A model generated the notes under the pieces. It was not told the origin of the DNA. It made no database searches and saw only the letters and a list, made by a program, of their open reading frames with translations. 32,844 nucleotides of DNA from a virus, in the IMG/VR virus record IMGVR_UViG_3300011013_001886, positions 1 to 32,844 of that record; one strand, 5' to 3'. This document shows, piece by piece, positions 2,930 to 17,453 of this stretch. The stretch's first letter is position 1; each line of letters opens with the position of its first letter. Made by a program: the position numbers and the translations under genes.

Positions 2930-3126
2930 TGTGTCACCACACCCATGCTCACCTAGTAGATAGCCATTATTTTTGTGACCATTGTAATGATAAAATTGAT
3001 AGAGATATTTATGAAGCGGTTAATCAAATTCCATCGAAACGCTTAACACAAAAAGAGCAGGATGAGATTCGATCCGACGCCAATAAAATAGATGCGTGGG
3101 AAAATGCGCCAATGGTAGAAACTTAA
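2929..3126 (+). CDS. Small His/Cys-rich protein, 65 aa
   Basis: A 65-residue protein whose first 20 residues carry Cys2, His3, His4, His6, His8, His13, Cys16, His18 and Cys19, including a CDHC pair. This suggests a small zinc-binding knuckle, followed by a charged helical tail. The start overlaps the recombinase stop (taATG), with AAGGAG about eight bases upstream, so it is translationally coupled to the recombinase. Function is unknown. The position suggests an accessory factor for the recombinase or the next-door nuclease, but this is inference. Confidence 0.6.
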   Translation: MCHHTHAHLVDSHYFCDHCNDKIDRDIYEAVNQIPSKRLTQKEQDEIRSDANKIDAWENAPMVET

Positions 3127-3127
3127 T

Positions 3128-3535
3128 ATGCATATATATGGTCTTGATGGAAAAGAATATTCATGGAACCCTTCGGTTGCACAGGCTAAATGTGCGCAAC
3201 GATCTAAATTACATACCAAAGCCAAGAAATTGCTTGACGATCTATTTCCACATGATATAATACTAGAAGAGGTTTCTTTAGTTGGAAGTAAGACCCAAAT
3301 AAGGCGCAGTACTTTACGTGCAGACTTTTTTATACCCAATAGAAATTTAATTATTGAAGTACATGGTGAGCAACACTACAAATTTAATCCATTCTTTTTT
3401 AAAAGTAAGTTAAGTTTTTATAAGGCTAAGGGTCGTGATACAGACAAGAAAGAATGGTGTGAGCTTAACCATATTATATTAGTAGAATTTAACTACAATG
3501 AGGACATTGATGAGTGGCGAAACAAAATTAAATGA
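3128..3535 (+). CDS. PD-(D/E)XK / Vsr-like endonuclease, 135 aa
   Basis: A predicted small endonuclease. The core reads LRADFFIPNRNLIIEVHGEQ (about residues 62-81) followed by HY. An acidic residue in the ADFF strand is followed by E-V-H-G-E-Q-H, a pattern typical of the Vsr/DUF559/EDxHD-type branch of the PD-(D/E)XK fold, where His/Gln replace the usual Lys. A later helix with DTDKKEWCELN and a final strand (IILVEFNY) complete the fold. Its location between recombinase and helicase fits repair or junction processing. Related domains also occur in free-standing homing endonucleases. The start has only a weak ribosome-binding site, two bases after the previous stop. Confidence 0.72.
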   Translation: MHIYGLDGKEYSWNPSVAQAKCAQRSKLHTKAKKLLDDLFPHDIILEEVSLVGSKTQIRRSTLRADFFIPNRNLIIEVHGEQHYKFNPFFFKSKLSFYKAKGRDTDKKEWCELNHIILVEFNYNEDIDEWRNKIK

Positions 3536-3973: not shown

Positions 3974-4411
3974 GTGAGCAAAATTGATGAAGCTAAAAAG
4001 CTCCTAAAAAAAGCGATTGAAATAAACGACGCTGAACTAATATCTATAGCTAACAAACTTTTAGAAGAAGAGTCATCTTCACCCGACGAGCGTGTCGAAT
4101 CGTTCCTAGCCACAAGGTTGGTTAATGGAAACGATGATAGTTTTTTATCCCCAATCATGAACGAAGATAAGCCTAATAACAAAACAGTTCCAGTAAATGA
4201 GGTGGGAAAGCGCGTTAACCAATTCCATGATGACGGATCTGATGCTAAAGATATTAACACTCCTGACTTTGAGCCTACCGCGCGACAAAGAGAACCATTT
4301 CAGCAGGTTGAGCTAAAATGTCAACAATGTGGACAAATGACATCAATTAATCCCACCCATAGACGAGAGTATTACGTTTGTGATAAGTGCATTAGATCAA
4401 AAATGAGATAG
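3974..4411 (+). CDS. Protein with C-terminal zinc ribbon, 145 aa
   Basis: It starts at GTG 3974, seven to eight bases after the perfect AAAGGAGA at 3961-3968, and is 145 residues long. The N-terminal ~30 residues form an amphipathic helix pair (KIDEAKKLLKKAIEINDAEL). A long polar, probably disordered linker follows. Residues about 114-141 carry a CQQCG ... CDKC pair of CxxC knuckles, the pattern of a zinc ribbon. It lies immediately upstream of the replicative helicase. A DNA- or helicase-interacting adaptor is a reasonable guess, but the family is not recognised. Confidence 0.68.
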   Translation: MSKIDEAKKLLKKAIEINDAELISIANKLLEEESSSPDERVESFLATRLVNGNDDSFLSPIMNEDKPNNKTVPVNEVGKRVNQFHDDGSDAKDINTPDFEPTARQREPFQQVELKCQQCGQMTSINPTHRREYYVCDKCIRSKMR

Positions 4412-4416
4412 GATAT

Positions 4417-5874
4417 ATGAAACGGAAAGCTTTAGAGGATCTAGCAGCTGAACGAGCGGTATTAGCAGGTTTGTGTCAATATGGTCTAGATTGTTATCTA
4501 GAAATAGATTTTATTGACGCTACCCACTTCAGCAATGAAATGAACCAGATCATATTTCATTGTGTACATAAAGCCATTTCAGAAAATGCTAAAGTAGAAC
4601 TAGCTTCTATATTGTCAGCCGCTAATAATCTTGGCCTCTATGAAGCCATTCATAACCCAGATGAAATAGCATTTGTTAGATCTCTTTTTAATTTTCCAAT
4701 CCATAAGGAAAACGTTACCTCTCATGCTGCTAAAATCGCTAAAATAAAATTAGCCAGAGATCTAAAGCAAACACTTAAAGCATGTGAAAAAGAATTAAAT
4801 TCTGTTACTGGAGAAGAGGATCTGATTGATCTTATCTCTAAGGTGGAAGAGCCAATTCTCGATGCTACTTCAGAAGTGTATCAATCCTCTGATAAACAAA
4901 CAGAAATACTAGGTAGTGACATTGATGACTATCTAACTTATCTATCTGAAAACATATCTGACACAGTAGGAATTCCTACTGGATTTGATAGATATGATAT
5001 GTCCATTGGGGGCGGTCTACGTCGTAAGTGCGTAGATCTTATTGCTGCCCGACCCAAGATTGGTAAGTCTATGTTCGGTGATGCTGTGGCGCTTAATGTA
5101 TCCAGTAAGCTAAACATACCAGTGCTAATGCTAGACACAGAAATGTCTAAAGAGGATCACTTAAATCGCATGCTGGCTAACCTAAGTGGTGTAGAGATTA
5201 ACAAAATTTCTACAGGCAAATTTAATGAAAACGAAATAGAAAAAGAAAAGGTTCACGACGCTGCCGAAAAACTAAAAAGCATCCCATATCACTACATTAG
5301 TATTGCTGGTCAAGCATTTGAACATATTATTGGGGTTATGCGCAAATGGATCTATCAGCATGTGGGTTTTGACGAGGGTGGCAGAACTAAAGATTGTTTA
5401 ATAGTTTATGATTATCTTAAGCTAATGGGATCTGAGGGCATTACTAATGCTATGCAGGAATATCAGGTTCTTGGATTTCAGATCACCAAGCTACATAACT
5501 TCTGCGTTAAGTATGATGTGCCGTGTTTAAGTTTTGTGCAGCTTAATAGGGATGGTATCACGAGGGAATCTACTGATGTTGTTTCTGGGTCAGATAGGTT
5601 GATTTGGTTATGTACAAGCTTCTCTATATTTAAGATGAAGTCAGATGAAGAAATAGCCGAGGATTCTATTGAACATGGAAATAGAAAATTAGTTCCCGTA
5701 GTGGCGCGACATGGATGTGGCTTAGATGATGGAGACTATATTAGTGTAAAAATGTTTGGAAACATTGGTAAAATTGAAGAAGATGAAACCCGTAATGAGA
5801 TACACCAAAATGCAAGATCAAGATCAGAAGGATTTGAAATACAAGAAGAGATTGACGAAGACGCAGATAGTTAA
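4417..5874 (+). CDS. dnaB: DnaB-family replicative DNA helicase, 485 aa
   Basis: A hexameric replicative helicase of the RecA-like SF4 class. The N-terminal ~110 residues match the DnaB N-domain (ERAVLAGLC, then DFIDATHFSNE). A linker leads to GIPTGFDRYDMSIGGGLRR (185-203), the characteristic entry to the helicase domain. Walker A is AARPKIGKS (210-218), the TEMS motif with catalytic Glu is at 241-244, Walker B is LIVYDYLKL (around Asp332), and the H3-like VQLNRD follows. At 485 residues it is full length for DnaB or T4 gp41-type helicases. It overlaps the primase gene, as expected for helicase-primase partners. No separate DnaC-like loader is obvious in the window. Confidence 0.92.
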   Translation: MKRKALEDLAAERAVLAGLCQYGLDCYLEIDFIDATHFSNEMNQIIFHCVHKAISENAKVELASILSAANNLGLYEAIHNPDEIAFVRSLFNFPIHKENVTSHAAKIAKIKLARDLKQTLKACEKELNSVTGEEDLIDLISKVEEPILDATSEVYQSSDKQTEILGSDIDDYLTYLSENISDTVGIPTGFDRYDMSIGGGLRRKCVDLIAARPKIGKSMFGDAVALNVSSKLNIPVLMLDTEMSKEDHLNRMLANLSGVEINKISTGKFNENEIEKEKVHDAAEKLKSIPYHYISIAGQAFEHIIGVMRKWIYQHVGFDEGGRTKDCLIVYDYLKLMGSEGITNAMQEYQVLGFQITKLHNFCVKYDVPCLSFVQLNRDGITRESTDVVSGSDRLIWLCTSFSIFKMKSDEEIAEDSIEHGNRKLVPVVARHGCGLDDGDYISVKMFGNIGKIEEDETRNEIHQNARSRSEGFEIQEEIDEDADS

Positions 5875-10538: not shown

Positions 10539-11444
10539 ATGGTAGCACTACTTGAAGACATCAATCAAGAATTTCATATGGGTAACATGTTTACCCTTAA
10601 TGTTGCTAGTGAACTGTGTCAACTATTAGATAGTAAATACAGGGTAATAGTTAAATATGACAATCAAGAATTGCCAATTTATGACGATGGTAGATTCAAT
10701 GTGGTTATTAGCACTTCTAGAGAAACGCATGATTACCCGCATGAATTTTTTAGAGATGATGTGCTTGTAATATTTCAACACTATTATATGCTTGACCAAT
10801 GGGATCACCCATGGTACAATCCTTTGGTATACCCGCTTCCAATTGGTACATTTGTTGAAGGGTTCGACGCTAAATTGATTAAACCAATGGCTGAAAGAGA
10901 ATATGATTTTTCCTTTATAGGACAAATACCACATACTGGAACTAGAGATTGCTTTAAACGGCATTTGGATGAACTAATGGAAACTAGTGGAGATAAGTTT
11001 AAATATTTTGTAAGGTATACCGATGGCTTTAAGCAAGGTCTAGATACTGGTGAATATCTAGATCTACTTGGAAATACAAAAATATGCTTGTGTCCACAAG
11101 GGGCTTATAGCTCTGAAACGTTTAGATTTTTTGAAGCAATTATGATGGGCGCTATTCCTATGGTTGAAAATCTTCCTAAGTTATGGTATTATGAGAATGC
11201 GCCCTTCATAAAAAGCAAATGGATTAAACTAGAAAAATCTCTATGTCTATTTTTAAACGCTTTACAAACAGAAAAATCTCGCAATATACTATATAGAGTA
11301 GCGCAATATGCTCAAACTGTACTCAATCCCAAATCTTTAGCGAGTTCGCTCAAAGAAAAAATCGATATAAGGCATCAAAAAGAGGCTGCCTCTAGATCAT
11401 ATCTTGAGAATGTAAGAAAAACTATTCAGGAAGTTAAACTGTAA
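10539..11444 (+). CDS. Exostosin-like (GT47-type) glycosyltransferase, 301 aa
   Basis: A predicted glycosyltransferase with a GT-B-like C-terminal half. A strand YDFSFIGQI (122-130) is followed by KICLCPQGAYSSETFRFFEA (181-200) and IMMGAIPMV. This is the donor-site block of exostosin/GT47-like and related proteins, with the Glu in F-R-F-F-E-A as a likely nucleotide-sugar contact. It lacks a signal peptide and is cytosolic. It sits alone among replication genes, one base before the polymerase gene and about 4.4 kb from the main glycan cluster. The ATG at 10539 has a weak ribosome-binding site, and ATG 10581 is an alternative. Confidence 0.75.
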   Translation: MVALLEDINQEFHMGNMFTLNVASELCQLLDSKYRVIVKYDNQELPIYDDGRFNVVISTSRETHDYPHEFFRDDVLVIFQHYYMLDQWDHPWYNPLVYPLPIGTFVEGFDAKLIKPMAEREYDFSFIGQIPHTGTRDCFKRHLDELMETSGDKFKYFVRYTDGFKQGLDTGEYLDLLGNTKICLCPQGAYSSETFRFFEAIMMGAIPMVENLPKLWYYENAPFIKSKWIKLEKSLCLFLNALQTEKSRNILYRVAQYAQTVLNPKSLASSLKEKIDIRHQKEAASRSYLENVRKTIQEVKL

Positions 11445-11445
11445 T

Positions 11446-13047
11446 ATGAATTGGCTACCAATAAATTGTAAAACTCATTTTAGTTTGCTGAAAGGATTCT
11501 GTAAACCATCTACTTTAGCGGCTAAGTGTAAAGAGTATGGCTACAAAGCTTGCGCAATTACAGACTTTAAAACTGTCTCTGGCGCTGTGGATTTTCACCA
11601 AGCTTGTCGTAACAATGAAGTCAAACCATTAATAGGATGTGATTTTGAAGATTATATGTTGATTGCAAAAAACAAAGATGGGTGGTTTGATCTCATAAAA
11701 CTTGTAACTATATATCATATTGACCCTAATATTGACACCTTAAAGAAAATAGGCGCACATGGAAATTTACTTTGCGTCAGTTTCAATGATGTATATAAAA
11801 ATCTATTTGGGAACAATTTTATAAAGTATGATTATAATAATCATAAAGTGTATTACGTAGAACGTGATGACGCTGTTCCCCATAGAGTGCTATTGTGTTC
11901 TGGTATGAAAACAACCCTCCCAAAAACACAAACAAAAATAAGAAAAGATGAGGATATTGAAAATAAAGAATTCTTTACTTGTGATGACTTTTTTTTACCT
12001 ACCCCCGACACCGTTGTCGATAATGAGGAAGACATCAAGTTATTGAATCGTATTTCAGATCTCTGTGAAGATTATGAGGTTGCTGAAAAACCTATGCTCC
12101 CAACTTTTAAATGCCCTAAGGGGTATGATGAAAACGAATACCTGAAGGAGCTATGTCGACACGGGTGGAAAAGCAGGCTCATAACATCTGGTAAAGTTTC
12201 CAAAAAAGAAGATGAGGCTAATTATTTAACTAGAGTTAAAAATGAATTTGAAGTTATTTTTAAAGCTGAATTATCTGGGTATTTTCTGATTGTTCAGGAT
12301 ATAGTTAATTATATAAAGGATCAAGGTTGGCTCGCTGGCCCCGGTAGAGGTTCGGCAGCCGGTTGCTTAGTGTCCTACCTTTTAGGTATCACAGAAGTAG
12401 ATCCACTAGAGTACGGGCTGATCTTTGAAAGATTTTATAATGAAGGACGTAACACTGAGGACTATGTATCGTTGCCAGATATAGACGTTGATGTTCCAGC
12501 CGAGCATAGAGATGATGTTATTGACTATATACGTCGGAAATATAATCCAGAAAATGTATCACAGATGATCACATTTGGAAGACTTCAAGGAAGAGCCGCG
12601 CTAAAAGAAGTGTTACGCATTAACGAGGCTGTTTCATTTTCAGAAATGAATGAAATCACTCAACATATCCCTAACGAGGCTGATATTTCAGATCAATTAG
12701 AGCTTTCAGATGAAAAGTCTATTATAAAATGGACACTAATAAACGATGGTGGTGATCTAAAAAAATGGTGTAAAATAAATGAAGATGGCACATTAGATGG
12801 TGAACTTTCTAATTTGTTTGATCAGGCCATTAAAATAGAAGGCACCAACAAATCTCAAGGAAAGCATGCAGCCGGTGTTATAATTTCCCAACACAAGTTA
12901 AAAGATGTGTGCCCAATGGTTAAAGATAAAAATGGAAATTTGATCGCAGCTTTTGAAATGAATGATTTGGAAAGTCAGGGTCATGTAAAATTCGATATTT
13001 TAGGTATTGATCTACTAAGTAAGATCATGGATATTCAACTTAATTAA
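11446..13047 (+). CDS. dnaE: DNA polymerase III alpha, N-terminal piece (PHP + palm/thumb), 533 aa
   Basis: The first part of a C-family replicative polymerase. A PHP-like domain opens with THFSLLKGF and KACAITDF (residues 10-41) and KPLIGCDF (60-67). Its first metal motif, HLHT in canonical enzymes, reads NCKT here, so the PHP site looks degenerate. The palm has AGPGRGSAAGCLVSYLLG (297-314), PDIDVD (344-349, two catalytic Asp) and HVKFDILGI (513-521) with the third Asp at 517. The protein then stops 16 residues later, exactly where E. coli DnaE continues into the fingers. The missing half is encoded separately at 13956-15491. The stop overlaps a weak ATG, and the next real start is 13059. 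Confidence 0.93.
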   Translation: MNWLPINCKTHFSLLKGFCKPSTLAAKCKEYGYKACAITDFKTVSGAVDFHQACRNNEVKPLIGCDFEDYMLIAKNKDGWFDLIKLVTIYHIDPNIDTLKKIGAHGNLLCVSFNDVYKNLFGNNFIKYDYNNHKVYYVERDDAVPHRVLLCSGMKTTLPKTQTKIRKDEDIENKEFFTCDDFFLPTPDTVVDNEEDIKLLNRISDLCEDYEVAEKPMLPTFKCPKGYDENEYLKELCRHGWKSRLITSGKVSKKEDEANYLTRVKNEFEVIFKAELSGYFLIVQDIVNYIKDQGWLAGPGRGSAAGCLVSYLLGITEVDPLEYGLIFERFYNEGRNTEDYVSLPDIDVDVPAEHRDDVIDYIRRKYNPENVSQMITFGRLQGRAALKEVLRINEAVSFSEMNEITQHIPNEADISDQLELSDEKSIIKWTLINDGGDLKKWCKINEDGTLDGELSNLFDQAIKIEGTNKSQGKHAAGVIISQHKLKDVCPMVKDKNGNLIAAFEMNDLESQGHVKFDILGIDLLSKIMDIQLN

Positions 13048-13048
13048 T

Positions 13049-13054
13049 GGAGGT
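13049..13054 (+). promoter_or_regulatory. Strong Shine-Dalgarno deciding the start of the 74-aa gene
   Basis: GGAGGT, the best match to a full Shine-Dalgarno in the window, lies four bases before ATG 13059. It shows that translation of the small gene inside the split polymerase begins at 13059 rather than at the ATG at 13047 that overlaps the polymerase stop. Confidence 0.8.
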
Positions 13055-13058
13055 CACA

Positions 13059-13283
13059 ATGGATGCCACAGCGGAAGACTATAAATCTGTAATTTTTTCT
13101 GGATGCGCAGTAGAATATATGGATATTTCTATTTGCAATTTAAGAACTTACTTGTCCCGTAGTGGCATTGATCGCGACTTAGGGTATCAAGTGTGGTCAG
13201 ATAAACATAGTTGTTACAGCATATATAAAAATATTGATGACGCTGTAGAAAAATTTATTTCACTCAAAGGACGTAAAGTATGA
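13059..13283 (+). CDS. Unknown 74-aa protein between the polymerase halves
   Basis: A 74-residue protein I do not recognise. The start at 13059 is supported by GGAGGT four bases upstream. It contains Cys15 (FSGCAVEYMD), Cys24 and Cys49, and a compact alpha/beta pattern ending in IDDAVEKFISL. There is no nuclease, HNH, GIY-YIG or LAGLIDADG motif and no intein motif, so it is not an evident mobile element. Its strong ribosome-binding site suggests high expression. Its place between polymerase N-piece and exonuclease suggests a small accessory subunit of that complex, which is inference only. It overlaps the exonuclease start by four bases. Confidence 0.7.
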   Translation: MDATAEDYKSVIFSGCAVEYMDISICNLRTYLSRSGIDRDLGYQVWSDKHSCYSIYKNIDDAVEKFISLKGRKV

Positions 13284-13963
13284 ATTATAGAGACATTATA
13301 GTATTTGACTTTGAGACCGGTAGCGCTAACCCACATACAACACAACCCACACAAATTGCTGCAATTGCGATTCATGCACGTAAGCTACAACTACAACCGG
13401 GGGGAACATTTAATAGTGAAATGCGTCCTATTATAGATGACGATGAAGCAATTAAAGCGGGCGTTGCTCCTCTTGAGGATGAAGCTCTGCGCATCACTCG
13501 TAAAAACAGAACAGATTTAGCAAAAGCGCCGCTCCCCAAAACAGTATGGAAAAAGTTTGCAAAGTTTTGTGATAAATACAACTTTAAAAAGACCAGCTAT
13601 TATGCCCCCATTGCAGCGGGATATAATATCAATAACTTTGATATGCCTATTGTTCAACGAATGTGCGAACAACATGGGCCTCTAGACAACAAGCGCGGCG
13701 AACAGAAGATCTTCAACCCAATTTTTACCATAGATGTTATGCAGCATATCTATTGTTGGTTTGAAAACAATCAGGATGTTAAGGGTTACAGTATGGATTA
13801 TTTGAGAGATTATTTTGGGATGGATAAAGAGAACGCGCACGACGCATTGCAAGACGTAAAAGATACAGCCAATCTTTTAATCAAATTCATGCGGCTTCAG
13901 AGAAGTTTATTGAAGAAAGTAAAATTTGAAAAATCTTTTGGAGACAACAAACTGTATGTTTGA
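13280..13963 (+). CDS. dnaQ: DnaQ-like DEDDh 3'-5' proofreading exonuclease, 227 aa
   Basis: A 3'-5' exonuclease of the DnaQ fold. ExoI is IVFDFETG with Asp10 and Glu12. ExoII is AGYNINNFDMPIV (Asn and Asp in the NxxxFD pattern). ExoIII is AHDALQDVKDTANLL with His and Asp (HxAxxD), which places it in the DEDDh class. At 227 residues it is close to E. coli epsilon (243). A segment between ExoI and ExoII (about 35-95) is longer than in minimal DnaQ. The Lys-rich tail could bind a partner. It lies between the two polymerase pieces and overlaps both the 74-aa gene (4 bases) and the C-piece (8 bases), so it is very likely the proofreader of this polymerase. Confidence 0.93.
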   Translation: MNYRDIIVFDFETGSANPHTTQPTQIAAIAIHARKLQLQPGGTFNSEMRPIIDDDEAIKAGVAPLEDEALRITRKNRTDLAKAPLPKTVWKKFAKFCDKYNFKKTSYYAPIAAGYNINNFDMPIVQRMCEQHGPLDNKRGEQKIFNPIFTIDVMQHIYCWFENNQDVKGYSMDYLRDYFGMDKENAHDALQDVKDTANLLIKFMRLQRSLLKKVKFEKSFGDNKLYV

Positions 13964-15491
13964 TCTATCAAACTTGCATGATGACGATGTTTGGGATTTG
14001 ATATGTGAGGGTTACACAAAGGGTGTGTTCCAGCTAGAGTCGCAGCTTGGGAGATCGTGGGCCAAAAAGGTTCGTCCCAAAAACATTAATGAATTAGCCG
14101 CGCTCATATCACTAATCCGTCCGGGATGTTTGAAAGCATTTACGGACGGTAAATCTATGACACAGCACTATGTTGACCGAAAAGCCAACATTGATCCTGT
14201 GACTTATCCTGACGAATCTCTAGAGCACATTCTTGAAGAAACCTATGGGGTGCTCGTATACCAAGAGCAATCTATGATGATCGCTCAAGAGTTGGCTGGG
14301 TTCACTCTTAAAGAAGCAGATTCGCTCCGTAAGGCCATCGGAAAGAAAAAGGCTGGTTTGATGTCAGAGGTTAAAACAGCCTTTCTGGAGGGCGCTGAGG
14401 AGCGTGGAATTGTCACCAAAGAAGTGGCAGAAGAAATCTTTTCATGGATCGAAAAATCTAACCGTTACGCTTTCAATAAATCTCACGCTGTGAGCTATGC
14501 GATTAACGCATACTGGAGCGCCTATTGTAAGTTCCACAAGATGGTGGCCTTTTATGTGGCATATCTAAATCACTCTGAAAGAAAACCAGATCCACAAAGA
14601 GAACTCAAAGAACTAATTATGGATGCTAAAATAGCCGATATAGAAGTATACCCTCCTCGACTACAGCATTTATATACAAATTTTATATCAAAGGAAGATA
14701 AGATATATTTTGGGTTACGTCACACCAAACATGTAGGCCAAAAGGAGTGTGAAAAAATAGAGCAAATATCAGAAGATATTGCAAACTATACATGGATGGA
14801 CGTGCTGATAAACATTATATATAAAGGTAAAATAAACAAAAGAGCTGCAATTGCGCTAATTTCAATTGGTGCTTTTAGTGGTGCTAACAATAAGAAACAT
14901 CGAGAAAAAATGCTTTATGAGTTTGATAGCTGGAAAGATCTCACGGCTAAAGAACAGGCTTATATTGCAGAAAATTATAAAAGTTCCGATAGCCTGTCGG
15001 AAGCCATAGGAAATATGGTACAGGATTCCAAGATCAATAGCCGTAGACTAACAACGGTAGTGGATATTAAACAAATGCTGGATAAGCCACCCCACGATCT
15101 AACCGATAGCGTGAACTCAATAGCAGAACATGAGGAAAAATATATGGGGTGCGCTCTTACTTGCAGTAAGATTGACGCTATTGATGCTAATTTTTCAAAT
15201 TCTTTGTGCAAAGATGTGGCTCGTGGTACTATAAAAGGTAAGTTAAATTTAATCGTGCAAATAAACACAGTAAGACCATATAAAACTAAAAGAGGTAAAA
15301 ATCCCGGTCAGTTGATGGCATTTATTTCAGCCGAAGATGGTAGTGGTGTTCTAGATTCTATTACAGTATTTCCCGAATGTTATGAAAAGTATCGCGATCT
15401 TCTGGTCGAAGGGAATACGGTTTTTATACAGGGCGAAACATCAAAAAAAGAAAACACTTCAGTCATAATCAATAAGGTAAGTCAAGTATGA
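13956..15491 (+). CDS. dnaE: DNA polymerase III alpha, C-terminal piece (fingers, HhH, OB), 511 aa
   Basis: The second part of the split polymerase. Residues 1-29 (FDLSNLHDDDVWDLICEG ... GVFQLES) match the start of the DnaE fingers, where E. coli has a helix followed by VFQLES. Later blocks include ISLIRPGCLK, GVLVYQEQSMMIAQELAG, EADSLRKAIGKK and NKSHAVSYAINAYWSAY, all fingers/beta-binding-region hallmarks. An OB-fold follows at about 400-511. It ends there, without the ~85-residue tau-binding tail of E. coli DnaE. ATG 13956 is chosen because it overlaps the exonuclease stop. The upstream in-frame TTG 13926 would add ten non-conserved residues. The ribosome-binding site is weak, so coupling to the exonuclease is likely. 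Confidence 0.92.
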   Translation: MFDLSNLHDDDVWDLICEGYTKGVFQLESQLGRSWAKKVRPKNINELAALISLIRPGCLKAFTDGKSMTQHYVDRKANIDPVTYPDESLEHILEETYGVLVYQEQSMMIAQELAGFTLKEADSLRKAIGKKKAGLMSEVKTAFLEGAEERGIVTKEVAEEIFSWIEKSNRYAFNKSHAVSYAINAYWSAYCKFHKMVAFYVAYLNHSERKPDPQRELKELIMDAKIADIEVYPPRLQHLYTNFISKEDKIYFGLRHTKHVGQKECEKIEQISEDIANYTWMDVLINIIYKGKINKRAAIALISIGAFSGANNKKHREKMLYEFDSWKDLTAKEQAYIAENYKSSDSLSEAIGNMVQDSKINSRRLTTVVDIKQMLDKPPHDLTDSVNSIAEHEEKYMGCALTCSKIDAIDANFSNSLCKDVARGTIKGKLNLIVQINTVRPYKTKRGKNPGQLMAFISAEDGSGVLDSITVFPECYEKYRDLLVEGNTVFIQGETSKKENTSVIINKVSQV

Positions 15492-15820
15492 ATAAATGTC
15501 ATTTTGTGGGTAGGTTAGTTAGTGACCCCCATTTAGTCAAAACAAATAATACCCACTTAGTAAAGTTTACTTTGGCTATAGAAGACCACCGTCGTGATAA
15601 AGATGGTAGTAAAAAGCGCCGCGTAGATTTTTTAAACTTTGAGGCTTGGGCCACAGCTGCTCAAACGATTGACACACATGCTAGTAAAGGGGATTTTATG
15701 GCAATTGAATCTATTGCTAGGCGTCAATCTTTTAACCAAGAATCTGAAACAGTGTCATTTAGGGTAACAAATTTTAAGATTTTCAATAACAATAAGCTGA
15801 ATGAAAATAATGAAGAATAA
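15488..15820 (+). CDS. ssb: Single-stranded DNA-binding protein, 110 aa
   Basis: A bacterial-type SSB OB-fold protein. It begins MNKCHFVGRLVSDPHLV, the signature strand 1, followed by HLVKFTLAIED and a basic KKRRVDFLNFEAWATAA core (about 46-62). It then has GDFMAIESIARR and the closing strand SFRVTNFKIF. The 110 residues end right after the fold with a polar tail (NNNKLNENNEE). The acidic DDDIPF-like tip that recruits partners in bacterial SSB is absent. It overlaps the polymerase C-piece by four bases and so belongs to the replisome block. It protects single-stranded DNA during replication and recombination. Confidence 0.88.
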   Translation: MNKCHFVGRLVSDPHLVKTNNTHLVKFTLAIEDHRRDKDGSKKRRVDFLNFEAWATAAQTIDTHASKGDFMAIESIARRQSFNQESETVSFRVTNFKIFNNNKLNENNEE

Positions 15821-17453
15821 AAAAGTATTATTTTGCTCTGAAGCATCATGGTTGAGTACAGGGTATGCTGTATATACTAAAGAAGTATTATCTAGATTGC
15901 GCCAAATAGATGGTCTAGAGGTAGCTGAGTTAGCCTGTTATGTAGACCCCACTGATGTTAATATTCCCAATGCGCTATGGAAAATTTATCCAAATAAACC
16001 AGCGCCCGGTGATGCTGCATATGATTCATATAAAGGAAATGTCACAGCTCAATTCGGAGATCAAACATTTAATGCTGTGATGCTGGATTTTCAGCCTGAT
16101 ATAGTTATGGATATTCGTGACTGGTGGATGATTGAGTTTCAACAACGTTCCCCTTTTAGGGATTTCTTTCACTGGGCTATTATGCCCACGGTAGACGCTC
16201 TACCACAAGCAAACCAATGGATTAACACTTTCGCCACCGCTGATTCAGTGTTTGCATATTCGGAATTTGGAAGAGATGTTATGTTACATCAATGTAACAA
16301 TATGAATTTTATAGATATAGCGTCTCCGTCTGCGAGTCAAAATTTTCAACCAGTATCCAATAAGCAACAGCATAAGCTTGATATGGGTGTCTCTCCTGAG
16401 TCACTAATTATTGGAACCGTTATGCGCAATCAAAAACGTAAGCTTTATCCTGATCTTTTGAGATCGTTTCGTATCTTCTTAGATCAAGTAAAAGATCCTA
16501 ATGTATTTCTCTATTGCCATACATATTATCCAGATGTGGGGTGGGATATACCAGCCCTAATTCATGAAAATGGTTTATCTAGTCGTGTGCTTATGACCTA
16601 TAAGTGTAAAAACTGCCAAGATATAACGGTTGACTTTTTTCAAGATGCGATTAAGTATTGCCATAAATGTCAACATTTTAATTGCCATCTAGTGGGAATT
16701 AATAACTCAATCAGCGAACCAGATTTGGCTAGAATATATAATCTGTTTGATATATATGTACAGTATGCCAATAGCGAAGGCTTTGGAATGCCGCAATTAG
16801 AAGCCGCAAACTGTGCAATTCCAGTCATATCTACATATTATTCTGCCATGCAATCAGTGGTAGATAATATTGGCGCAATTGGAATTCCTCCTTTAGGTTT
16901 TTATACGGAGTGTGAGACTGGGTGTAATAGGGCTGTTCCAAACAACGAGCTTTTTATTAATACATTGATAAGCCTACATAAAGAGAAATATAAATTGCCA
17001 GACATTGGTAAGGAAGTTCAAGAAAAGGCTATTGCAAATTATAACTGGGATAAAACTGCTGACGCATGGGCTAAGCGTATTATGTCACTAGAACAAAAAG
17101 ACCCATCTACTACATGGTTATCACAGCCACAGATTAGAGAACCGGCTACAGAAGTTCCTGCGCAGATCACATCTATTACAGATAAAGTTAATTTTATTTT
17201 TGAAAACATACTATATAAGCCACAATGGATAGGAAATTATCTATGGAAACGTGTTCTACGAGATCTCACGTTTGGTTATCGGTGTGAAAATCTGACTAAG
17301 GATTTTTATTTTAGTGAATCTCATGTACAGTCCTACAGTGGCAACACACCATTTTCAGTAGATCAGGCGTGTCAAGAGATGATCAACTTTAGAAACCAGA
17401 TCAATCGATGGGAAGAGGCACGACTTCAAATGATGCAACAAAAGGGAATGTAA
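15801..17453 (+). CDS. GT4-type glycosyltransferase with zinc-ribbon insertion, 550 aa
   Basis: A large GT-B glycosyltransferase. It opens with VLFCSEASWLSTGYAVYTKE, the acceptor-domain Rossmann start. The donor domain holds IIGTVMRNQKRKLYPDLL and the E-x7-E block EGFGMPQLEA. Between them, residues about 269-290 carry CKNC and CHKC, a four-Cys zinc ribbon inserted in the donor domain. The last ~100 residues (after NYNWDKTADAWAKRI) form an extra helical tail unusual for GT4. It begins the long glycan gene cluster and overlaps SSB by 20 bases. ATG 15801 and 15810 are both possible and neither has a strong ribosome-binding site. Donor and acceptor are unknown. Confidence 0.85.
   Translation: MKIMKNKKVLFCSEASWLSTGYAVYTKEVLSRLRQIDGLEVAELACYVDPTDVNIPNALWKIYPNKPAPGDAAYDSYKGNVTAQFGDQTFNAVMLDFQPDIVMDIRDWWMIEFQQRSPFRDFFHWAIMPTVDALPQANQWINTFATADSVFAYSEFGRDVMLHQCNNMNFIDIASPSASQNFQPVSNKQQHKLDMGVSPESLIIGTVMRNQKRKLYPDLLRSFRIFLDQVKDPNVFLYCHTYYPDVGWDIPALIHENGLSSRVLMTYKCKNCQDITVDFFQDAIKYCHKCQHFNCHLVGINNSISEPDLARIYNLFDIYVQYANSEGFGMPQLEAANCAIPVISTYYSAMQSVVDNIGAIGIPPLGFYTECETGCNRAVPNNELFINTLISLHKEKYKLPDIGKEVQEKAIANYNWDKTADAWAKRIMSLEQKDPSTTWLSQPQIREPATEVPAQITSITDKVNFIFENILYKPQWIGNYLWKRVLRDLTFGYRCENLTKDFYFSESHVQSYSGNTPFSVDQACQEMINFRNQINRWEEARLQMMQQKGM

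Follow-up and report, generated by a model that had tools for sequence, protein, structure and literature searches.

A C-family DNA polymerase encoded in two genes with a proofreading exonuclease gene between them in a clade of uncultured phages

Organization of the polymerase locus

The window, that is, the whole stretch of 32,844 nucleotides of viral DNA that we analysed (IMGVR_UViG_3300011013_001886), contains a compact replication cluster with the following genes:

11446..13047, + strand: alphaN, DNA polymerase III alpha N-piece (533 aa; degenerate PHP remnant, palm and thumb)
13059..13283, + strand: p74, small protein of 74 aa (start ATG 13059)
13280..13963, + strand: DEDDh (DnaQ-like) 3'-5' exonuclease (227 aa), between alphaN and alphaC
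13956..15491, + strand: alphaC, DNA polymerase III alpha C-piece (511 aa; fingers, HhH and OB)
15488..15820, + strand: SSB, single-stranded DNA-binding protein, the last gene of the conserved cluster

The alphaN stop and the start of the small-gene ORF both fall at 13047, and the following genes overlap by 4 nt (p74/exonuclease), 8 nt (exonuclease/alphaC) and 4 nt (alphaC/SSB), in agreement with the initial annotation, which had described the genes from alphaN to SSB as overlapping or abutting. Read from 13047, its longest ORF, the small gene would encode 78 aa (alternative name p78); GGAGGT lies just 5' of ATG 13059. The alphaC gene has its own ATG, most likely that at 13956, preceded by a Shine-Dalgarno-like GGAG; the first start in the ORF list, TTG 13926, is unlikely. 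The two polymerase genes are ca. 0.9 kb apart and this interval is filled by two other genes, so that they do not form a single polypeptide. Other replication genes in the window encode a DnaB helicase, a Toprim primase and a RecA/UvsX-like recombinase, and there are also genes for a PD-(D/E)XK nuclease and a dNMP kinase. The proposal that this is a self-contained replisome core went too far, since a bacterial-type clamp was looked for and not found in these records, which are fragments.

The polymerase is cut at the palm/fingers boundary

Products alphaN and alphaC are a C-family (DnaE-type) polymerase encoded in two genes. Against Pfam, alphaN matched PHP and DNA_pol3_alpha (PF07733, E 4e-73), and alphaC matched DNA_pol3_finger (PF17657, 3e-45) and HHH_6 (PF14579) above the cut-off; the alphaC OB domain (PF01336) stayed below it (22.0 vs 27 bits) and was aligned to E. 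coli alpha in a PDB profile search. In such a search alphaN also matched DnaE, and the top PDB matches of its AlphaFold model (pLDDT 89.4) were all DnaE alpha subunits. Its palm carries the catalytic Asp block PDIDVD together with D517, from which the C-terminus is only 16 residues away, and D345, D347, D349 and D517 are invariant among 21 sequences. Alignments with solved structures reach approximately residue 563 of E. coli alpha for alphaN and run from residue 590 onwards for alphaC, which places the cut at the palm/fingers boundary. Pfam and structure alignments thus agree with the earlier reading of a C-family polymerase divided at this boundary with no conserved block lost. Compared with the unbroken polymerase of a related virus (L056, see below), the window lacks around four residues at this point (ILSKIDKI-AKYA-NIDLDNWEDVETW vs LLSKIMDI and MFDLSNLHDDDVW).

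The PHP domain of alphaN is not intact and gives only a partial match, over residues 8–96. In place of the HNHSH and TDHG that the fused L056 retains, the window carries NCKTH and TDFK, and it is about 80 residues shorter; PHP is likewise shortened, and devoid of the metal-site signature residues, in most members of the clade.

The exonuclease (Pfam RNase_T, 8.9e-15; PHROG 192, DNA polymerase exonuclease subunit) is, as first proposed, a complete DEDDh enzyme nested between the pieces, with its active site residues D10, E12, D121, H187 and D192 invariant among 17 sequences. The SSB (Pfam SSB, 8.7e-13) occupies the same place in most relatives. No match to p74 was found in sequence searches of Pfam, PHROG or PDB, and its confident alpha/beta model (pLDDT 88) retrieved no convincing structural match from PDB or BFVD (best BFVD E 0.024). 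Most relatives keep p74 which, wherever present, sits immediately or almost immediately upstream of the exonuclease.

The arrangement is recurrent and its polymerase pieces are under purifying selection

Among the matches listed, of the 130 distinct alphaN sequences whose loci have all three genes (alphaN, exonuclease and alphaC), 129 are divided in the same way around the exonuclease gene, and the remaining one belongs to a fused polymerase. The same gene order is thus shared by clearly more than 100 distinct sequences of numerous samples and by two MAG contigs, indicating that it is due neither to chance nor to an assembly error. In 121 of 129 loci an alphaC ATG lies no more than 36 nt from where it is expected, and a Shine-Dalgarno-like motif occurs in 100 of the 129.

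Both polymerase pieces are under strong purifying selection, with dN/dS values, given only where dS was finite and not where it was saturated, of ca. 0.01–0.13 for alphaN, exonuclease and alphaC, and of 0.02–0.09 for the small gene. Twelve related contigs of 97–158 kb contain one N-piece and one fingers domain each; PolA (A-family) and PolB (B-family; PF00136) were looked for in these contigs and not detected, although the controls matched. The clade is a large group of uncultured phages. In a separate search for the T4 gp23 capsid protein, no control gave a match.

Origin of the split

Two contigs, L055 and L056, identical over 12,690 nt and representing one virus type, encode the polymerase in one uninterrupted gene, preceded by the small gene and the exonuclease. 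The initial annotation had considered that fused relatives with the same flanks would speak against a genuine split; this virus type is such a fused relative, but with the small gene and exonuclease ahead of its polymerase and as sister to all split members it does not refute the split. L056 is the sister of all split members (support 100/97), another fused relative branches below, and a topology with L056 nested in the basal split subclade is rejected (p-AU 0.007). With an earlier tree, a grouping of L056 with just L054 and L058 was not rejected (p-AU 0.14). As outgroups we used fused INPHARED phages, which are ca. 25–35% identical; the exonuclease tree is too weak for rooting on its own.

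Given the fused sister and the further fused relative below it, a single fission in which the exonuclease cassette and alphaN swapped places is the best explanation, and a re-fusion or two separate fissions are less likely. The unbroken gene in a close relative also indicates that the enzyme was split by gene rearrangement. The order in L055/L056 is likely the ancestral one, and further fused relatives may exist beyond the matches listed. The change would have been from p74-exonuclease-alpha-SSB to alphaN-p74-exonuclease-alphaC-SSB. Its simplest routes would be a tandem duplication of the p74-exonuclease-alpha block followed by complementary loss of the redundant halves, or a move of the p74-exonuclease cassette to the palm/fingers boundary.

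Two chains proposed to form one replicative polymerase

We are largely confident in an explanation in which one fission at the base of the clade gave rise to two chains that rebuild one replicative C-family polymerase, most likely by non-covalent reassembly into a single proofreading enzyme; assembly from two chains, which the initial annotation had taken as a necessity, is the most probable reading. Each piece would be translated from its own start in the tightly overlapping operon; alphaN, with the palm and all the catalytic aspartates, and alphaC, with fingers, HhH and OB, would fold separately and then bind to each other. Because the PHP of alphaN lacks the metal-site signature residues and part of the fold, proofreading would be supplied by the exonuclease, probably docked on alphaN by analogy with epsilon on DnaE; operon position and conservation back this association. 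The small protein p74 is probably a subunit associated with the exonuclease or the polymerase. A bolder version, which we regard as rather improbable, makes exonuclease and p74 structural parts that attach to alphaN during the translation of alphaC and bring the halves together, so that a complete polymerase forms only with the proofreader aboard, and with a second break sealed by a split intein in some relatives. If this were true, the replicase of those relatives would consist of three translated pieces held by one non-covalent and one covalent joint.

An artefact breaking one gene could be imagined from the metagenomic nature of the contig, but its probability is negligible: the order recurs across the distinct sequences and MAG contigs described above, and a single-base error cannot create two whole conserved genes between the pieces. 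We also give very little credit to a rejoining of the pieces into one chain by RNA trans-splicing, an intron or a split intein at the junction. Split inteins and endonuclease genes do break the same polymerase in some relatives, although at a second site (alphaC Y171|A172); at the window junction, however, the interval is occupied by overlapping conserved ORFs, every alphaC has its own start, a Hint domain was looked for in the window's alphaN, p74, exonuclease and alphaC and not found, neither polymerase piece carries a fused intein, and the window has no intron or other Rfam family at gathering scores. Of the two objections raised initially, the assembly error is rejected by the comparative data, and the intron finds no support in the Rfam search.

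The shortened PHP could be taken as a sign of a decaying, non-functional polymerase in phages replicated by a host or other enzyme. This is very unlikely, because purifying selection on the two pieces is strong, they co-occur throughout, their catalytic columns are invariant, and no other DNA polymerase family was detected in the 12 large contigs. Equally doubtful is that the two proteins work in different complexes, one of them regulatory for instance, for which the jumbo-phage split Pol III alpha, with distant genes and a family B polymerase, offers a precedent (PMC7824862). In the window, the catalytic aspartates of the palm and the nucleotide- and template-binding fingers are on different chains and, judging from DnaE structures, neither would be a complete polymerase, and no second one was found in the 12 large contigs.

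Comparison with other split polymerases

Some relatives (L049, L050, L056, L058 and L152) show a split-intein-type break, at what we take to be the cyanobacterial DnaE intein site. In the split DnaE of cyanobacteria, as in "fractured genes" with split inteins, the break likewise leaves two genes; the window junction lacks an intein and is located elsewhere, so covalent rejoining is not expected.

In family B gp43, the exonuclease is a domain of the polymerase itself. Split phage polymerases were already known, from T4-like phages (gp43A/B; PMC2988022), OM43 phages (PMC10580990) and jumbo phages (PMC7824862), and the claim that no described phage replisome is built this way was too strong; the locus adds a variant with the proofreader gene between the halves. 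The gp43A/gp43B genes of the Aeromonas T4-like phages 25 and 44RR likewise encode a replicative polymerase in two parts, but these belong to family B and are separated by a seg homing endonuclease gene or an untranslated spacer, whereas those of the window belong to family C and are separated by a proofreading gene. The phage 25 products co-purify and polymerise, and a split NrdA is fully active (PMC2988022). In group 2.2 jumbo phages, too, a C-family alpha is divided over two stand-alone proteins that have been proposed to come together again (Iyer et al. 2021, PMC7824862), although as a minimal core without other Pol III domains, from genes far apart and alongside a family B replicase. The window, in contrast, keeps a PHP remnant, fingers, HhH and OB in neighbouring genes with the exonuclease between, and this is the only polymerase found. 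The OM43 phages MEP401/402 have a split DNA polymerase too, described in a passage that mentions neither a C-family enzyme nor a nested exonuclease (PMC10580990). The nearest cultured case is the isolate Rossellomorea phage phiT1 (gp20/gp19/gp18; PV767480), a single record whose C-family alpha is divided at this very palm/fingers boundary, with a 49-aa gp19 where the window has p74 and the exonuclease; its split is of independent origin (p-AU 4e-7).

The clade offers a phylogenetically placed fission of an essential replicative polymerase whose unbroken sister is still sampled. With phiT1 as a second break of separate origin there, the boundary between palm and fingers stands out as a natural place to cut C-family polymerases, and it could serve for split-polymerase design or for tests of palm and fingers assembly. 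It also matters for annotation, because in many phages of viral metagenomes the replicase shows up as a pair of incomplete DnaE genes that might be mistaken for a frameshift. The alpha of Bacillus phage Jayan, also annotated as two pieces, is cut elsewhere, between approximately residues 335 and 345 of alphaN.

A split polymerase gene with a nested exonuclease

Pfam and PHROGs matches agree with the initial annotation in assigning to the window, a 32,844-base IMG/VR virus record, a DNA polymerase III alpha encoded by two genes (alphaN and alphaC), with an exonuclease gene and a 74-aa gene between them. All genes around this locus are on the + strand, and adjoining genes in the cluster from alphaN to the single-stranded DNA-binding protein gene (SSB) overlap by a few bases:

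11446-13047, + strand: alphaN (Pfam PHP and Pol III palm models)
Start at ATG 13059 (74 aa) or at 13047 (78 aa), + strand: small gene p74, between alphaN and the exonuclease gene
13280-13963, + strand: DnaQ-like exonuclease (Pfam RNase_T)
13956-15491, + strand: alphaC (Pfam finger domain and HhH; OB weak)
15488-15820, + strand: SSB (Pfam SSB)

In PHROGs, alphaN and alphaC map to one phage DNA polymerase family, mainly to 246-609 and 627-1069, respectively, of 1190. The genes found 5' of the cluster (RecA/UvsX-like, HNH endonuclease, DnaB helicase, Toprim primase, dNMP kinase and PD-(D/E)XK nuclease) indicate that the alphaN-SSB stretch is a phage replication region. A gene resembling an HNH homing endonuclease (3128-3535) lies upstream of the DnaB helicase gene. 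Glycosyltransferase-like genes occur on both sides of the replication cluster (10539-11444 and 15801-17453), and a gene like the downstream one is also present 3' of the cluster in the related loci L049, L054 and L056.

In comparisons with solved structures, the alphaN alignment reaches approximately residue 563 of E. coli alpha and that of alphaC starts at residue 590, locating the cut at the palm/fingers boundary, as originally proposed. The fingers of E. coli alpha start near residue 561 and, therefore, palm, thumb and catalytic aspartates are all on alphaN. DnaE alpha subunits were the best structural matches (query-normalised TM-score 0.73-0.78) of the alphaN AlphaFold2 model, whose mean pLDDT was 89. 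Relative to the fused polymerase of L056, only around four residues are absent at the cut.

The split is widespread and conserved

Searches of IMG/VR with alphaN, alphaC and the exonuclease retrieved hundreds of relatives among the matches listed, in scans of up to 80 loci, and the same gene order does recur in viral metagenomes. When only loci with exonuclease and alphaC as well were counted, among the matches listed, the exonuclease gene lies between the split pieces for 129 of 130 distinct alphaN sequences, the remaining one being fused, with a median of 912 nt from the alphaN stop to the alphaC start; the same split appears in a further ca. 74 loci, partly on contigs counted before. Most loci have a recognisable small gene; none was recognised in certain lineages (e.g. 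L041, L047, L054 and L278). Pairwise dN/dS, for pairs with finite dS, was ca. 0.01-0.13 for alphaN, exonuclease and alphaC; the small gene gave values of 0.02-0.09.

One N-piece and one fingers domain are present on each of twelve contigs with lengths of 97-158 kb. We found no family A or family B polymerase in them; these records may be incomplete and, therefore, this is not proof of absence. Two contigs from metagenome-assembled genomes also carry the split cluster, L278 (VFHP01000007, 152.7 kb, binned with SAR202) and L277 (binned with Flavobacteriales); both may be phage sequences placed in bacterial bins, and their binning is a possible lead to hosts.

Two chains expected to reassemble

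Neither an intron nor an intein was identified by Rfam and Pfam searches at the palm/fingers junction of the window, so the intron that the initial annotation had considered as a means of restoring one continuous gene was not found. Among the matches listed, every alphaC has its own start, preceded in 100 of 129 cases by a Shine-Dalgarno-like motif. From these observations, the expectation is that alphaN and alphaC are two chains which reassemble; as a precedent, T4-like phages have a split gp43 and a split NrdA that are active (PMC2988022).

In the window, the PHP domain is ca. 80 residues shorter than in L056, and both its HxH and its DHG signature have been lost, so proofreading should be supplied by the exonuclease, in which all five active-site residues are invariant. 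The p74 model is a confidently predicted small alpha/beta fold, for which structural comparison found no known counterpart. Because p74 adjoins the exonuclease gene also in the fused L056, its gene context assigns it to the exonuclease and not to the split itself.

The idea that no phage replisome built this way had been described goes too far, split phage polymerases being already an established kind, although we found no description of the alphaN-p74-exonuclease-alphaC arrangement in the open-access literature searched. Jumbo phages have been described with a minimal split Pol III alpha, whose genes are distant, and a family B companion (PMC7824862). Inteins and fragmentation come up in passages from surveys of bacterial Pol III alpha, and the nested exonuclease arrangement is absent from those passages.

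Origin of the split

Fused relatives, which the initial annotation had set against a genuine split if their flanks were the same, do exist but do not refute it: L055 and L056, identical across the 12,690 nt compared, have a continuous alphaN-alphaC reading frame with p74 and the exonuclease gene 5' of it, and L056 is sister to the split clade. In a maximum-likelihood tree, all split members have L056 as sister (100/97), inside a 100/100 clade, and this position did not change in an enlarged tree, where the fused polymerase L386 diverges just below (99/98). Nesting of L056 in the basal split subclade was rejected (p-AU 0.007); a narrower grouping with L054/L058 alone, in an earlier data set, was not (p-AU 0.14). 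Neither p74 nor the exonuclease gene was recognised adjoining the L386 polymerase within the stretch examined and, therefore, their ancestral upstream position rests on L056. The parsimonious history would be a fused ancestor with p74-exonuclease upstream, followed by a single rearrangement that swapped alphaN and p74-exonuclease; a tandem duplication with complementary loss would produce the derived gene order directly.

A similar split occurs in the isolate Rossellomorea phage phiT1 (L291, PV767480, 2986-6268), in which gp20 and gp18 are both annotated as Pol III alpha and are separated by gp19, of 49 aa. Here, the junction is the same as in the window: gp20 ends just past the motif of the third aspartate (KFDLLGLKTLKVIQNSVDQINQGVAV), and the start of gp18 is at the fingers. 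Grouping of phiT1 with the split clade was rejected (p-AU 1e-4 and 4e-7), and its split is, judging by phylogeny, independent of the clade's. As phiT1 is represented by one record and no close relatives were found, its split may also come from a sequencing error. The Pol III alpha of Bacillus phage Jayan (L287, PQ299153, 2932-6339) is likewise annotated in two genes, separated by a 76-aa ORF, with a cut that differs from the window's and lies inside the palm region.

Further interruptions in relatives

At alphaC Y171|A172, the polymerase of five loci has a further interruption, made up of split intein halves on either side of a DUF559/NUMOD3-type endonuclease gene:

L049, 4170-7026
L056, 4191-7020
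L058, 5980-8805
L050 and L152, also with this second break

In L056, an ORF with a terminal Hint domain is followed by the endonuclease gene and then by an ORF resuming the polymerase, a layout shared by L049, L058 and L152; the polymerase of L049 and L152 is thus spread across three reading frames. We take Y171|A172 to be the DnaE intein site of cyanobacteria, and the layout presumably corresponds to the published 'fractured genes' with split inteins.

Some relatives have additional genes within the cluster: L054 a helix-turn-helix-rich ORF oriented against it (4117-5217, - strand), L058 a YpsA/DprA-like gene (4273-4776) and L049 a DUF6165 gene (3042-3464). Further inserts are possible in L316 (2-2316), with alphaN in two parts separated by a ca. 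1.2 kb gap, and in L383, with a two-part alphaC.
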